A stretch of DNA of 33,125 nt from Bacteroidota bacterium (GTDB lineage Bacteria; Bacteroidota; Ignavibacteria; UBA10030; UBA8401), in assembly GCA_028749215.1 (NCBI GenBank), contig JAQUOA010000006.1:1-33125 (forward strand), in the 5' to 3' direction. This document shows, in pieces, positions 14,782-22,000 of the stretch (positions are counted from its first letter, which is position 1; every line of letters starts with the position of its first letter). The notes beneath the pieces were generated by a model. It did no database searches, was not told the DNA's origin, and worked only from the letters and a program-made list of their open reading frames with translations. The position numbers and the translations under genes were made by a program.

Positions 14782-14815
14782 TGGGCTAATTAAATTCAAC
14801 GGAATGGAGTTGATT

Positions 14816-16336
14816 ATGAAAACGAAACTCTCCCTGTTGTACTTTTTCTTGGTACTCTTTCTCGGTACAACGCTTATTGCACAGACAAGCGGGCTGCAAT
14901 ATTATCGTTCAGCAGTAATGAACGGCAATAACATTAAAACTGTATTTGGTAATTGGGGCGTCATTGGTCAGCCGGCTGATACACGGCCGCGCGGCGCATG
15001 GCTTTATGAAACGAATGGATATATCGGCGATGAATCTATTTTACTCGGCATCGAGTTTCCCATTAAGGATTACAATGGCGACTCAAAGTCGGATACTGTG
15101 CATTCAGTAATCACCAGTCCTGTTTCTCGTCCTGCTTCAAGCTTTGATATCAATCCAACAACAAGCGACCCGTGGACATTTTTGCCTGATAGTAATTCAC
15201 TCAACACAAAATCGAACAGTGTTGCACTCAGTTCCGATATAAGCACATGGCCGGCGTCGTGGAAAGACGGCAATGGTTCGGCAGAATGGAACGGCTTTTT
15301 CGGGAAAGGGAAAATGGTTGCAGATCTTGAAGCTTATTTTCAAATGAACGATGAAAATGATCATCGCTTTGATACACCTGCAAATAATTCATATGGCAAA
15401 AATTTTACTGGTAGAAATGGACAGGGAATTTCAATAACAGTTCGATACCTGCAATGGAATCATCCGGCGGTGAAAGATATTCTCTTCCGTGTCTATGACA
15501 TAAAAAATGAAAGTGCGTTAAAATACAATAAGGTGGTTTTTGGGTATTTACTGGGAACGTATGTGGGCATTACCACGACGGATCATTCTCCTCAAGAATA
15601 TAACGATGACTATACTGTTTTTTTCAAAAAGGAAAATGTCCTTGTTTTCGGTGATTATGACAACAACTGTTCCCGTAATCCGCTCTGGAAAGATTCTGTT
15701 GGGAAATGTGGCACTGCATTTATCGACTCGCCGAATAAGAATGAAATCGGGAGTTACAGTTATTTCACTCCGTCAAATCAAATTCGTTTAGGCGATGATG
15801 AGATCTTATGGGCAATGATGAAGGAAGGAAGCTATTCTAATCCCAGCAATGTTTTGAATGATACAATTCCTCTCGCCGGCTCCGATGGCGATTTTGTCTT
15901 TGGCACCTATTATTTTTCTCTTGATAGTGGTGAAGTAAAAAGAATAGCCTCGGTGCTTGCGTATGGATATACCAATGCTGAGGTGTTACAAAAAGTTCAA
16001 GCTGCGCGCGACATATATAAAAATAATTTCTCACTCCCAAACGTAGTATATAATGTTTTGAACAATATTTCTTTATCGTTCGGGCTTCAACAAAATTTCC
16101 CCAATCCGTTTAACCCATCGACAATCATCAATTACCAATTACCAATTACCAGTTACGTGACATTGAAAGTGTACGATCTGCTTGGACGTGAAGTGGCAAC
16201 GCTGGTGAATGAGATGAAGGAAGCAGGATATCATACGTTTCAATTTCACGGTGCAGATTTGGCGAGCGGAATTTACTTCTACCAGTTACGTGCCGGAGAT
16301 TTTTTGCAGACAAAGAAAATGGTGCTGATGAAATAA
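14816..16336 (+). CDS. T9SS-exported protein of unknown function
   Basis: Signal peptide MKTKLSLLYFFLVLFLGTTLIAQ after a GGAG RBS; tail LQQNFPNPFNPSTIINYQLP...KKMVLMK; no recognised catalytic domain. Confidence 0.8.
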   Translation: MKTKLSLLYFFLVLFLGTTLIAQTSGLQYYRSAVMNGNNIKTVFGNWGVIGQPADTRPRGAWLYETNGYIGDESILLGIEFPIKDYNGDSKSDTVHSVITSPVSRPASSFDINPTTSDPWTFLPDSNSLNTKSNSVALSSDISTWPASWKDGNGSAEWNGFFGKGKMVADLEAYFQMNDENDHRFDTPANNSYGKNFTGRNGQGISITVRYLQWNHPAVKDILFRVYDIKNESALKYNKVVFGYLLGTYVGITTTDHSPQEYNDDYTVFFKKENVLVFGDYDNNCSRNPLWKDSVGKCGTAFIDSPNKNEIGSYSYFTPSNQIRLGDDEILWAMMKEGSYSNPSNVLNDTIPLAGSDGDFVFGTYYFSLDSGEVKRIASVLAYGYTNAEVLQKVQAARDIYKNNFSLPNVVYNVLNNISLSFGLQQNFPNPFNPSTIINYQLPITSYVTLKVYDLLGREVATLVNEMKEAGYHTFQFHGADLASGIYFYQLRAGDFLQTKKMVLMK

Positions 16337-16470
16337 CAATTTGTAGAGGGAAGTATTTTTTTGAACGGAGGCCCACACTCATTTTTGAGTACCTGGTTAG
16401 AACACGCACGGCAGAATATTTATATGAGTATTATTTGAAAGATAAGCCACATTGAAGATGATCACAATTA

Positions 16471-16866: not shown

Positions 16867-17372
16867 CAGTTCTGATCTATGAGTTGCTGATTGACTAATC
16901 TGTAACATGATTGTATTTCCTTTTATGGTTGAATATTTTTGATTTCAAGATATACAACCGGTGAAGGAACGTTGTCATGAAATTGTCAAAAGAATGTCAG
17001 AAAATGCAGGGCATCATTTTTGTACAATTTGTGTTGTTACGCTATGCTCTTTCGTCTGTTTTAACGCGTGGCCTGGTGTTTATAAAATTTGTCTTTCGCA
17101 ACACGACACTACTCCATCCATATCTCATTCCATCCTTTTTTTACCATTCCGCTAATCAGGAAAATCATGAGCTTTGTCATGACTCTTTTGGTCTTTGCAT
17201 CCATCGTCACGGATAGTGTAGTGTGGTCTTTTTCTTGTCGTACTCGGTGACAGTAAGTTCTGTTTTTGTTCCTTTTCCTTTCATAAGTCTAGTCTCACGA
17301 AAAAGAGTGCCCACACCAAATTTTATATCTGAAAGAAATTCAATTTTGATGATATGAGTTTACAGGCAAAAA

Positions 17373-17393
17373 AAAATGGTACTGATGAAATAA
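17373..17393 (+). pseudogene. Residual T9SS tail fragment (KMVLMK*) with duplicated 3' flank
   Basis: aaaatggtactgatgaaataa...aatttgtagag...atttttttgaacgg at 17373-17438 matches aaaatggtgctgatgaaataa caatttgtagag...atttttttgaacgg at 16316-16371. Confidence 0.55.
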
Positions 17394-17524
17394 TACTTTG
17401 TGTAATTTGTAGAGTCAGATGATTTTTTTGAACGGTAGTCGCAACATCAAGGTTAAACAACGTGTGAGATTGCAAACCGTTTGACGTTTCGAACGTTTTC
17501 AAAGTACTTGGTCAGCGGATGGTG

Positions 17525-17896
17525 CTATATTATTTTACATGGTATGAGAGCGTCTTCATTATAAGAGTAGATCGCACATAATCGATGATATCCATCTGCA
17601 ATAATGACCCTTCCATTGATTGAATCCCTTATCAGAAGCAAAGGAGATAACTCGCGTCCTGATTCTATTTTCTTTTGGTCTTTCTCGACATGAGCATTAC
17701 TGATTCCAAGCGATGATAACCCCGATGCTCTAAAGATATCTTTTGCTTTGAACTCCGTGATAGCCGCTTTTCTCAATTTATTGACATCAGCGGCAGCCTT
17801 CTGTTCATCGTAAATCAGAGACAAGTACGAAAGGGCTGCCGGGTAATTATGTTCTTCCGGTTCACTCAACCATTTTATTTCGGCTTTATTCGACAT
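17525..17896 (-). CDS. Small ParB/Srx-like-fold protein, function unknown
   Basis: SPLLLIRDSINGRVIIADGYHRLCAIYSYNEDALIPCKII resembles the conserved ParB-type core; 123 aa. Confidence 0.6.
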   Translation of the reverse strand: MSNKAEIKWLSEPEEHNYPAALSYLSLIYDEQKAAADVNKLRKAAITEFKAKDIFRASGLSSLGISNAHVEKDQKKIESGRELSPLLLIRDSINGRVIIADGYHRLCAIYSYNEDALIPCKII

Positions 17897-17941
17897 TTTG
17901 CATTCTCCATTGACTTTCTTGATAGTAAAAGCTGTTGAAAC

Positions 17942-18008
17942 CTGACGGACTGGAATTAAATTTTCTTTCTACGTTGTAGTACGTCGTCAATTTTAAGTGT
18001 CCGGTTAG
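17942..18008. repeat. Intergenic repeat with imperfect dyad, attC-like candidate 1 (32-bp core 17944-17975)
   Basis: gacggactggaattaaattttctttctacgtt core; arms GGACtggAATTAAA / AATTTTAAgtGTCC. Confidence 0.5.
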
Positions 18009-18020
18009 ATACTCTATATT

Positions 18021-18461
18021 TCAATTATTTAATATTTTTATCTTTTCAGCCGCCGATTTCAACGTTGATATTATATAGTGTTCTTCACATTGTTTCCACA
18101 CTTCATTTCCAGCAAAAACTAACTCGCCAAACAATGGTAACAAAGAATAAATAATCAACAATCCGATAGTTACTTTCATTGAAAGAACCAAAATGATAAA
18201 AAGTGAAACAATCCCGCCTCGCAGCAGAACGTACTCATAAAGGATAAATCGGATTTTCCCTTTGCTGCGTATCGTATCCCAGTGTAATAATCTTCTCTGG
18301 TGTTCCATTTTTTCTAAATAGTAAATTAACCCAATTAACATAAGTCCAATAATCGTAACTCTAAGATCAGACAATTGTAGGGCATGGTTCCAAACTATTA
18401 TTCCATAAGTAAGGATAATGAAGAAAATGGTAGAATAAGCAGTCATGGATAATTTTTTCAT
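18021..18461 (-). CDS. Hypothetical membrane protein
   Basis: 146-aa ORF with several hydrophobic helices; start directly next to the repeat at 18471. Confidence 0.55.
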   Translation of the reverse strand: MKKLSMTAYSTIFFIILTYGIIVWNHALQLSDLRVTIIGLMLIGLIYYLEKMEHQRRLLHWDTIRSKGKIRFILYEYVLLRGGIVSLFIILVLSMKVTIGLLIIYSLLPLFGELVFAGNEVWKQCEEHYIISTLKSAAEKIKILNN

Positions 18462-18470
18462 TTGAAAACC

Positions 18471-18545
18471 CCTAACGGATTGGAACTACATTGTTCTGTA
18501 ATGCTGTCGTAACTTATAAATTTTTATTAACTGGTCACGCGGTTT
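18471..18545. repeat. Intergenic repeat, attC-like candidate 2 (32-bp core 18474-18505)
   Basis: aacggattggaactacattgttctgtaatgct, alignable without gaps to the cores at 17944, 18988 and 21676. Confidence 0.5.
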
Positions 18546-18548
18546 AAA

Positions 18549-18959
18549 TTATTGTACCACAATCGGATCAAAATGATTCCATGCACCCGTATAAATATCG
18601 ATGAACATTGGTACCCCGCCGCCAAGTAAATCTAAAACTAACCAACCCCAGCCAAGTTTTGGATATCGTGTGATAGAATATTCTTTTTTTGCAGTTTTTA
18701 TCAAGAGCACATGATTCGCATTTGAATATAATGAGATATGATACAATGTAGAATCTATGGAAAAATGAGATCTTGAATCTATTTCAAATTTTTGTTCTGT
18801 CTTGTGAACAGGAATTTGAACGCCATTTATTGTTTGAAATGAAACATCTTCTGAATACTGATAGATGTGAACCGGATCTTCGTACCCTTTGAAAAGTGTT
18901 GCGCATCCATTGAACAGAAATAATAATAGTACAACAAGAATAATTGAGTGTTTTCGCAT
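18549..18959 (-). CDS. Hypothetical lipoprotein
   Basis: MRKHSIILVVLLLFLFNGCATLFKGYED lipobox; ORF opens upstream at 19040 but the signal peptide begins at 18959. Confidence 0.6.
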   Translation of the reverse strand: MRKHSIILVVLLLFLFNGCATLFKGYEDPVHIYQYSEDVSFQTINGVQIPVHKTEQKFEIDSRSHFSIDSTLYHISLYSNANHVLLIKTAKKEYSITRYPKLGWGWLVLDLLGGGVPMFIDIYTGAWNHFDPIVVQ

Positions 18960-18987
18960 AGAGTAATATTCCTTGTTTAAATGTTGA

Positions 18988-19070
18988 TATGGATTGGAAT
19001 TAAATTGCCGCATAACGTTGCAACGCGTCGGCGGTTTCAACGTCTGCGTTGAGCAACTGCTAGGCGGTTT
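18988..19070. repeat. Intergenic repeat with strong dyad, attC-like candidate 3 (32-bp core 18988-19019)
   Basis: tatggattggaattaaattgccgcataacgtt core; arms CCGCATAACGTTGC / GCAACTGCTAGGCGG surround the loop. Confidence 0.55.
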
Positions 19071-20055
19071 ATTTTGTCTTTAAACTTTCTTGATGTTGTT
19101 TTTCGTATTCGGGTAAATGCTTTTTATAGTCTTCAATATCCCACATAATTCCAAATTGATATACATAATCCGAAAGAGGTCCCAATCCTACCTCTGTCCG
19201 TCTTTTATCCACATTGTCAGGATCTTCAAGAGGCGCCACATAGGATTTATGGGTTTGATGATTGGTAAATATTTGACTCCCGTAAATCTGTTTTTTCCCC
19301 TGTCCTAAGGCTGTTCGATCTTCTAACAATGCCAAGGCGCTTGCACTAGCATTACCTTTTTTAACCGCTTCACGCATCATTGGCAGATATTTTTCTTGCG
19401 TTTTCAAATCAGAATGTTGAATGACAAGAAATAATGTTTGATTTGCTTGCATGCCGACTTTGTCTTTTCCCACCCAGCCTTTTTCATCTAAAATTTTTGT
19501 TACTTTAATTAAGTTAATACTGTCTTTGTAGATCATTATTTTCCCTAAACTGTCTGCCGTCGGATTATTGTACCCTAATTTTTTTGTTGCTGTTATATAC
19601 TGATTTCGAATGCTTTGATCATCATTAAAAATTTCCAAAAGTTCTTTTTGCAATGGTTTATCGTAGTTTGCTTCAATAGAATCAATTGTGTTTTGCATCT
19701 TACTTAATAAAGCTATCCATTGGCCGTCATTGTGAAGTCCGTTTAAATCGCTGTCTTTTTTCATGTGGTCAATGTTCAACCATCCGTTTTGACATGCTAA
19801 CTTCAGAAACTCAAAAGAATTTTTAGTGTCACCTGCTAATGCTGCTGAACAAGCAGCGTTGTATAAGTCATTCACATTTTTCTTTTCAAATTTAAAGGCT
19901 TGTTGGTATACATCATTTGATTTTTTATAGTCCTTTGAGTTATACAATGAATCGGCTTGTTTGATAAGTTGTCTGTAGGTCTGTCCCGATACAGTAACCA
20001 TCAGAAGGAAGGTCATTGTACATAAGAGGAGCACTCGAAGAAACACTATTCGCAT
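19069..20055 (-). CDS. Exported TPR-like protein with DUF6624-like C-terminal region
   Basis: Signal peptide; YNSKDYKKSNDVYQQAFKFEKKNVNDLYNAACSAALAGD TPR-like; DRTALGQGKKQIYGSQ...VDKRRTEVGLGPLSDYV. Confidence 0.7.
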   Translation of the reverse strand: MRIVFLRVLLLCTMTFLLMVTVSGQTYRQLIKQADSLYNSKDYKKSNDVYQQAFKFEKKNVNDLYNAACSAALAGDTKNSFEFLKLACQNGWLNIDHMKKDSDLNGLHNDGQWIALLSKMQNTIDSIEANYDKPLQKELLEIFNDDQSIRNQYITATKKLGYNNPTADSLGKIMIYKDSINLIKVTKILDEKGWVGKDKVGMQANQTLFLVIQHSDLKTQEKYLPMMREAVKKGNASASALALLEDRTALGQGKKQIYGSQIFTNHQTHKSYVAPLEDPDNVDKRRTEVGLGPLSDYVYQFGIMWDIEDYKKHLPEYEKQHQESLKTK

Positions 20056-20182
20056 ATTTTTACTTTAATTTGATGGATGGACTTTAAAACAGCGCATGAC
20101 TAAATATTTACCGATGTAAATTCGTTGATTATTCATTCTTAGGTTGTAGACCGGCAAACCTTTTCCATCTATACCGCAAACT

Positions 20183-20261
20183 TGTTAAATGTAATCCATT
20201 AGCATCATAACATCCATCTCAAAAAAGAGAATCAGTCTTTAGACGGGCCAATATAATAATC
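20183..20261. repeat. ~75-bp direct repeat, copy A
   Basis: aaatgtaatccattagcatcataacatccatctcaaaaaagagaatcagtctttagacgggccaatataataatctc versus copy B at 21740. Confidence 0.7.
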
Positions 20262-20499
20262 TCTTGTGCGATCAACGCATCGTGGAACAGTAATTGTAAC
20301 ATCGAGACGGTTGCTTTCACGCTCAAGCACACTAGAAGAAGCTTCAGCATATTGCCCCTCCGTCTGAATGTTGCCTCAACAAAATCTTCGAGGTGATTGA
20401 ACAACTAAAAGATTTCTCTGAATTTGTGCGTTCATAAAAACAGGGTCTATCATACTAATGAATAGCAATCTTTTGAATTGTTTCATGGCGCACCTCATT

Positions 20500-21606
20500 T
20501 TATTTTAGCCATTGACAATACTGGTAATTAACAATAAATGCCTTTGGATTATCTATGTCTTTCAATTTACGAAAATTATTACCATCAGCATTAACAACGT
20601 ATAATGCAAATGTTCCACCATTTTTTGCTGTACCGAAAATAGCAATATGCTTACCATCTGGAGACGGGGTCGTAACGGCATTATAATTAAGACCCCTTGC
20701 TATAAGTTTTCCTTCGGAAGAACTAAAGTTTGAGACAACAAACACTTCATAACTGGTATCTACAGGATTAATCCCGACACAAATCAGCTTCCCATCTGGA
20801 AGCCAAGAATATCCAGCAGGTGATGTTCGTTTCCCATTCACATTTATTTTTTGAGATACTCTGCTTACAATATCAATCACATATAAACCACCCGTTGTAT
20901 CATCCATTGTTTGGTTGGATTTACAATAAGCAATGGTGCGGGAGTCTGGAGACCACGACGGAAGCGAACTCGGTAAAATCGAACCAATGCGGTCAAGCAA
21001 AACTTGATTAGAACCATCTGGATTAATAAGATAAAGATTGTAATCTACCGGTGGTTTGAAAGATGTTTGCCCTATAAAAGTAATATTGCTTCTATCCGAT
21101 GACCAACGAGGCATGACAGCGACAGCAAGCGATGATGTATCTGTCAGATTGTGTAAATTACTTCCATCTTTATTCATAACGCACACTGCTTCTTTGAAAC
21201 CAGGGTAAAACACTCTATTGAAAGCAATTGAGAGACCGTCAGGAGACCAATCGGGCCAGCTATCAGTTAGAGACGGCGAATTGGGTGTTAGGTCAATGGG
21301 AGTACCTCCTGTGATGTTGACCGTAAAGATATCAATCATCCCTGTCTGCGAACCAGTATAAACAATCTTATCACCGTTTGAATTTACTCTAGGTTCATCA
21401 CCGATGGTAACGATTGAGGAAAGAGTTAATTCGGATGAATTCAAATCTATCACATTAATTCCTGAAAGATTTCCACCGTGTAGGTTGAAAATAATTTTCC
21501 CTGATAAATCCCATATCGGGGGAGTAACACTGTTTTCTTTTTTGCATCCCCAATTTATTATGGTTAATGCAACTAGAATAAAAACGGGAGAATATGTTTT
21601 CTTCAT
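20500..21606 (-). CDS. TolB-like / PD40 beta-propeller lipoprotein
   Basis: MKKTYSPVFILVALTIINWGC lipobox; repeated 'SWPDWSPDGLSIAF', 'MPRWSSDRSNITFIG', 'LPSWSPDSRTIAY' blades. Confidence 0.85.
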   Translation of the reverse strand: MKKTYSPVFILVALTIINWGCKKENSVTPPIWDLSGKIIFNLHGGNLSGINVIDLNSSELTLSSIVTIGDEPRVNSNGDKIVYTGSQTGMIDIFTVNITGGTPIDLTPNSPSLTDSWPDWSPDGLSIAFNRVFYPGFKEAVCVMNKDGSNLHNLTDTSSLAVAVMPRWSSDRSNITFIGQTSFKPPVDYNLYLINPDGSNQVLLDRIGSILPSSLPSWSPDSRTIAYCKSNQTMDDTTGGLYVIDIVSRVSQKINVNGKRTSPAGYSWLPDGKLICVGINPVDTSYEVFVVSNFSSSEGKLIARGLNYNAVTTPSPDGKHIAIFGTAKNGGTFALYVVNADGNNFRKLKDIDNPKAFIVNYQYCQWLK

Positions 21607-21675
21607 TAAAATCCTCCTTCCTTAAATGGGGGTCACTTCATTCTTATATAACTGGTTTAAAAGAACAAGCGGTAT

Positions 21676-21707
21676 AACGGATTGGAACTAAATGGCCACG
21701 CAACGTT
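21676..21707. repeat. Intergenic repeat, attC-like candidate 4 (32-bp core)
   Basis: aacggattggaactaaatggccacgcaacgtt. Confidence 0.5.
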
Positions 21708-21739
21708 TTAGAGTCTGGGGAACTGTTTATTGAATTAAT

Positions 21740-21817
21740 AAAATGTAATCCATTATTATCATAACATCAATTTCAAAAAAAGAGAATCAGTTTTTCAGCC
21801 GACCAAAATAATAATCT
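21740..21817. repeat. ~75-bp direct repeat, copy B
   Basis: aaatgtaatccattattatcataacatcaatttcaaaaaaagagaatcagtttttcagccgaccaaaataataatct. Confidence 0.7.
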
Positions 21818-21888: not shown

Positions 21889-21963
21889 GGACGTTTAGCT
21901 CAGTTGGTTCAGAGCGTTCGCCTCACACGCGAAAGGTCGTAGGTTCAAGTCCTACAACGTCCA
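21889..21963 (+). tRNA. tRNA-Val (anticodon CAC)
   Basis: Cloverleaf by eye: acceptor GGACGTT/AACGTCC, D-stem GCTC/GAGC, anticodon arm TTCGC-CTCACAC-GCGAA, T-arm GTAGG-TTCAAGT-CCTAC. Confidence 0.93.
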
Positions 21964-21965
21964 CA

Positions 21966-22000
21966 AATAAAAAATCCCGCTGTGCGGGATTTTTTATTTC
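21966..22000. terminator. Terminator downstream of tRNA-Val
   Basis: AAAAAATCCCGC tgt GCGGGATTTTTTATTT. Confidence 0.8.

Follow-up and report, generated by a model that had tools for sequence, protein, structure and literature searches.

Relation to described integrons and CALINs

The integron integrase (IntI) recombines a folded attC strand at the R′ box, and cassettes are inserted one after another. In sedentary chromosomal integrons of the Vibrio type (VCR arrays), the attC sites are long and mutually alike within one lineage. Clusters of attC sites that lack an integrase are termed CALINs (IntegronFinder, PMC9024848); these carry fewer cassettes than complete integrons and are read as degraded integrons (PMC9024848). 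The locus described here occupies approximately 17.5–21.7 kb on the minus strand of the window, by which we mean the whole 33,125-nt stretch that was analysed. It is very probably a CALIN, namely a short array left from an integron type that still exists in genomes of the same family.

As in a CALIN, the locus contains at least two close candidate attC sites, one-direction genes between them and no integrase nearby. Specifically, a matrix and a covariance model (CM) trained on relatives, together with arm alignment, placed four sites within 3.8 kb; the genes between them are in a single orientation, and no IntI is found in the neighbourhood. The difference is that the sites in the window are more eroded than the model attC sites of the relatives. 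With the chromosomal integrons of Chlorobi/Ignavibacteriae and of several relatives (G002, G004, G005 and others), the locus shares an attC 3′ arm close to TTARTTCCARTCC-GTTRRRY, the 9- and 11-nt spacers and an A-T rich spacer and L-box junction. The type-IX-secretion-like tails encoded in the window suggest an origin in the same broad group. However, the relatives' integrons combine intI with well-paired attC sites of 125–200 bp, whereas the window has no intI and its damaged sites span only about 61–82 bp. The locus resembles the Vibrio VCR arrays in having long attC sites that are alike within the lineage but, unlike those arrays, the genome carries few cassettes, its sites are scattered over three contigs, and it has no integrase.

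The original prediction had read the region as an integron-like or CALIN array. This reading is supported by the fact that sites of the same type form arrays in intI-bearing relatives, and that a CM built from those relatives detects the array in the window. We regard the locus as one more instance, in eroded form, of a gene-capture system that is already known; it leaves the understanding of integrons unchanged. It does, however, illustrate attC erosion where no integrase was found, beside relatives with intact integrons, and it yields a family-specific description of attC.

attC sites and integrases in related genomes

Motif and integrase searches covered 41 genomes, comprising the genome under study and its relatives. 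The repeat motif was found in 13 of the 41, commonly two or three times per contig, while a reversed control pattern gave zero matches in the same genomes. An integron integrase scoring over the curated TIGR02249 cut-off was present in 14 of the 41; none of 14 control genomes matched at the same E-value. Arrays of attC are evident in these relatives, with eight sites in G002:C7 and with intI nearby in G004:C152 and G005:C52. A complete attC in the relatives is approximately 125–200 bp long. R′′ (CCTAAC), a 9-nt spacer and the L′′ box are separated by a long variable loop from the L′ box, which is followed by an 11-nt spacer and R′ (GTTAGGY); the R boxes agree with the R′′/R′ consensus RYYYAAC / GTTRRRY. 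Most of these sites can be folded into a structure of 22 pairs plus one extrahelical base, and 14 of the 22 pairs have changed on both sides, a level of covariation reached by 0 of 500 shuffles.

These sites served as the basis for models that were independent of the locus itself. The 3′ arm matrix was built from 49 arms of relatives with the genome under study excluded, and the CM from 23 attC sites of relatives with the window array absent from training. Since the truncated loop of the CM underscores the long-loop attC sites of the relatives, per-genome counts obtained with it are lower bounds. A matrix of the 5′ arm by itself was too weak for site finding, its best scores in the window falling within those of shuffles. 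One further array, G002:C37, is of a divergent kind: it has about eight attC sites with an almost identical 3′ arm, in which a GGGGTCCCTTTGGGA hairpin replaces the usual L box.

Four eroded sites in the window

The locus had been noticed because of four 32-mers on the plus strand, starting at 17944, 18474, 18988 and 21676, and each of these was present at its coordinate. An unguided repeat search of the window likewise returned 17947–17975, 18477–18505, 18991–19019 and 21679–21707 as a single four-copy family. On the minus strand, each repeat reads TTTARTTCCARTCC or TGTAGTTCCAATCC and then one of GTTAGGG, GTTATAC, GTCAGGT and the mutated CATATCA; we take the repeats to be attC 3′ arms (L′ box, unpaired spacer and R′ box). 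The claim that the repeats adjoin minus-strand ORFs slightly upstream of a start codon was also borne out: sites A, B and C each occupy the gap between a minus-strand stop codon and the ATG of the gene that follows, and site D precedes gene 1. When the window was scored with the matrix derived from relatives only, sites A–D occupied the top four ranks in the 33 kb, all on the minus strand, and the scores of A, B and D exceeded the maximum (12.4) of 200 dinucleotide shuffles.

Site A (17940..18010, minus strand, 71 nt) has both arms recognisable, with R′′ ATCTAAC, a 9-nt spacer, a degraded L stem, L′ ..AATTTAATTCCAGTCC and R′ GTCAGGT. Its 3′ arm scores 19.1 bits with the relatives' matrix, and it is the only one of the four sites that the CM finds significant by itself (30.0 bits; E 3.8e-6 for the window and 3.5e-4 genome-wide). 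In site B (18470..18540, minus strand) the 3′ arm is clear (18470–18505, R′ GTTAGGG; 22.5 bits, above all 200 shuffles) and the 5′ arm is eroded, the CM giving 12.7 bits (E 0.28). Site D (21672..21732, minus strand), upstream of the first gene, likewise has a clear 3′ arm (21672–21707, R′ GTTATAC) that scores 28.2 bits, above all shuffles, and that has 31 of 35 bases in common with the attC next to the integrase of G005; its 5′ arm is uncertain, and the CM gives 14.1 bits (E 0.12). In site C (18984..19065, minus strand) R′ is mutated (CATATCA) and the L stem carries an insertion. Its 3′ arm score of 3.7 bits was reached by 34 of 200 shuffles and hence is not above the null by this arm alone; the CM score is only 10.1 bits (E 1.5). 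The R′′ GCCTAGC, however, lies in a near-canonical 5′ arm, GCCTAGCAGTTGCTCAACGCAGACGTTGAAACCGCCGACGCG, which aligns to a G002 attC with a score of 57 compared to at most 27 for random pieces of the window, and the site folds as DNA with z = -3.0 on the top strand.

Taken together, the matches to the relatives' matrix, CM and arm alignments argue that sites A–D are attC sites, each worn in a different part. Of the imperfect attC hairpin, with its L boxes, its unpaired spacer and its extrahelical base(s), they retain only a part. The original prediction had stated that the R′ and R′′ boxes match the attC consensus only partly. Compared with GTTRRRY, the R′ boxes of A (GTCAGGT), B (GTTAGGG), C (CATATCA) and D (GTTATAC) are indeed near but at least one base off in every case; the fit is nevertheless better than first thought, because the R′ box is the extreme end of the repeat. 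The longer dyads that had been proposed are present at 17940–18010 and 18984–19065; at 18470 and 21672 the 5′ arm is barely recognisable. Two more degenerate copies, reported at 17434–17464 and 20075–20105, did not hold up as attC: their best local scores of 19 and 22 fall within the range given by random pieces of the window (null median 20, maximum 27), and both were rejected.

A loose 16-mer pattern gave 162/150 matches in the genome under study versus 55/40 for the control and was too noisy to use. The exact attC 3′ arm pattern matched once in 85,462 named genomes, in a Thiotrichaceae MAG (WFWY01000107.1, 232–254), and this match is weak by the matrix (11.2 bits).

Cassette genes

As predicted, the array consists of one-directional small genes: five genes lie on the minus strand, the same strand as the attC sites. 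Gene 1 (20500..21606) encodes a lipoprotein-like beta-propeller of 368 aa with TolB-like repeats (Pfam PD40, 5.9e-14; TIGR02800 below cut-off). Gene 2 (19069..20055) encodes a secreted DUF6624 protein of 328 aa (Pfam DUF6624, 5.8e-25), and its stop codon lies 3 bp before site C. Between these two genes is a degraded interval (20056..20499, minus strand) in which a sizeable intact gene is absent; it contains only a 61-aa ORF and one copy of a 77-bp duplication, and arm alignment gave no attC support within it. Gene 3 (18549..18959) encodes a small lipoprotein-like protein of 136 aa, gene 4 (18021..18461) a small membrane protein of 146 aa that matches no family, and gene 5 (17525..17896) a ParB-like protein of 123 aa, after which, at the end of the array, no attC is recognisable. 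The distance from stop codon to attC is 3–10 bp for genes 2, 3 and 4, and that from R′ to the next ATG is 8–65 bp. The DUF6624 protein had a single weak PADLOC match (NsnC, 2.6e-4), which we did not take as evidence of a defence gene.

We compared gene content across relatives rather than strains, the genus being represented by one genome. The cassette genes proved sporadic in the order, and one of them recurs as a cassette elsewhere. Among 98 genomes, including the one under study, those with a homologue number 4 for the ParB-like protein, 14 for the membrane protein, 4 for the DUF6624 protein and 6 for the lipoprotein. Homologues of the gene 3 lipoprotein are flanked by two attC sites in G025:C6 and sit inside an attC array in G003:C19, so that at least one gene of the window is an exchangeable cassette elsewhere. 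A ParB-like homologue with 67% identity sits in G019:C202 just past two attC-bounded units, with no attC between it and the preceding gene. No attC was found within 1.5 kb of the ParB-like homologues in G003, G019 C535 and G078, nor of most membrane-protein homologues. The ParB-like gene moves by other means too, since its family occurs on proteobacterial plasmids.

The plasmid-borne ParB-like homologues come from Xanthomonas, Pseudomonas and Klebsiella (66 plasmid records) and are located near insertion sequences or toxin-antitoxin genes. The best plasmid identities are 62–65% (Klebsiella, Xanthomonas), and these genes have insertion sequences or a gene for a VapC toxin nearby; most relatives are without the gene.

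Integrase and the present state of the array

The array had been described as lacking a visible integrase, with an IntI perhaps located elsewhere. No protein in the draft genome exceeded the TIGR02249 cut-off for IntI (best 83.9 bits versus 265 required), neither IntI nor a fragment of it was recognisable in the whole draft assembly, and tblastn with the relatives' IntI detected no integrase remnant in the window. By inspection, the recombinases found in this genome look like XerC, XerD, an integrase of phage type and a further tyrosine recombinase, and the IntI-specific insert of the relatives' proteins is by eye absent from all of them. The complete form of an integron, with intI, attI and a promoter by the array, was not seen here: none of the three was identified. 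Two further attC sites were detected outside the window, each between two ORFs: C77:6985–7149, with an L stem that by eye is intact, and C179:740–820, where the ORFs run in one direction and the R boxes are perfect.

A fabF-like and a ribonuclease-III-like gene flank the interval that contains the C77 site, and within this interval G000:C77 5759–9562 is an island of small ORFs with the one attC. Genes for fabF and ribonuclease III are often neighbours in bacteria.

In the reading that we favour, each cassette unit would comprise a gene followed by its attC, and an integron integrase would once have added the cassettes through recombination of the folded single strand of attC at its R′ box, as the anatomy of the array suggests. 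Present inactivity is suggested in turn by the lack of an integrase and by the damage to the sites. Since no integrase is recognisable and the pairing of the attC arms is largely lost, the partly eroded array would probably now be frozen, with genes that are inherited like ordinary chromosomal genes. We consider it unlikely that the array is instead live, with an integrase that the cell has but the assembly lacks, or that a plasmid or other element provides, acting on the sites in trans. In favour of a live array, the draft assembly comprises 341 contigs and is 96.67% complete, the R boxes of the C179 site are perfect and the L stem of the C77 site is by eye intact, and relatives do have IntI. 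A missed integrase gene is possible, but at 96.7% completeness it is not likely; moreover, neither IntI nor a fragment of it was found in the draft or the window, and in sites A–D the R′ box is mutated or the stem is broken. There is, correspondingly, little reason to expect that an integrase outside the assembled genome still uses the eroded sites in trans and that the lineage keeps a scattered reservoir of cassettes.

Even more improbable is that the repeats are unrelated to integrons and represent a shared promoter, a regulatory RNA or a REP/MITE-like element between small genes. Taken singly, sites A, B and D have MFE folds no better than those of shuffles, and a separate 77-bp duplication exists in the same region, both of which would suit such an element. 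However, the only Rfam match is tRNA-Val, with none for the repeats; the repeats clearly match the covarying attC arms of integrase-bearing relatives, the independently trained models contradict an unrelated origin, and in the relatives the motif marks the boundaries of arrays and is found on contigs that carry intI.

Array borders and expression

On the right, the array is bordered by tRNA-Val(CAC) (21889..21964, plus strand). A perfect hairpin with a T-run (21965–21999) and the divergent tRNA-Val separate the array from the histidine kinase gene, and because of this arrangement the cassette genes are probably expressed from within the array. A promoter scan gave a number of sites not above that of shuffles. 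The closest homologue of the histidine kinase (62%, G004:C5) was considered as an empty site and proved uninformative, having different neighbours and no adjacent tRNA.

The 77-bp segment at 21741..21817 (minus strand) is duplicated at 20187–20262 with 84% identity, and no other copy of similar length was found in 22 genomes. Genes 1 and 2, both on the minus strand, each have one copy approximately 130 bp upstream, and the duplication could represent a promoter common to the two genes or the residue of a cassette end. At the left border, the 3′ end (16312–16362) of a sorting-tail gene (14804–16336) recurs approximately 1 kb to the right, at 17369–17428 (KKMVLMK stop), which suggests a gene remnant at this edge of the array.
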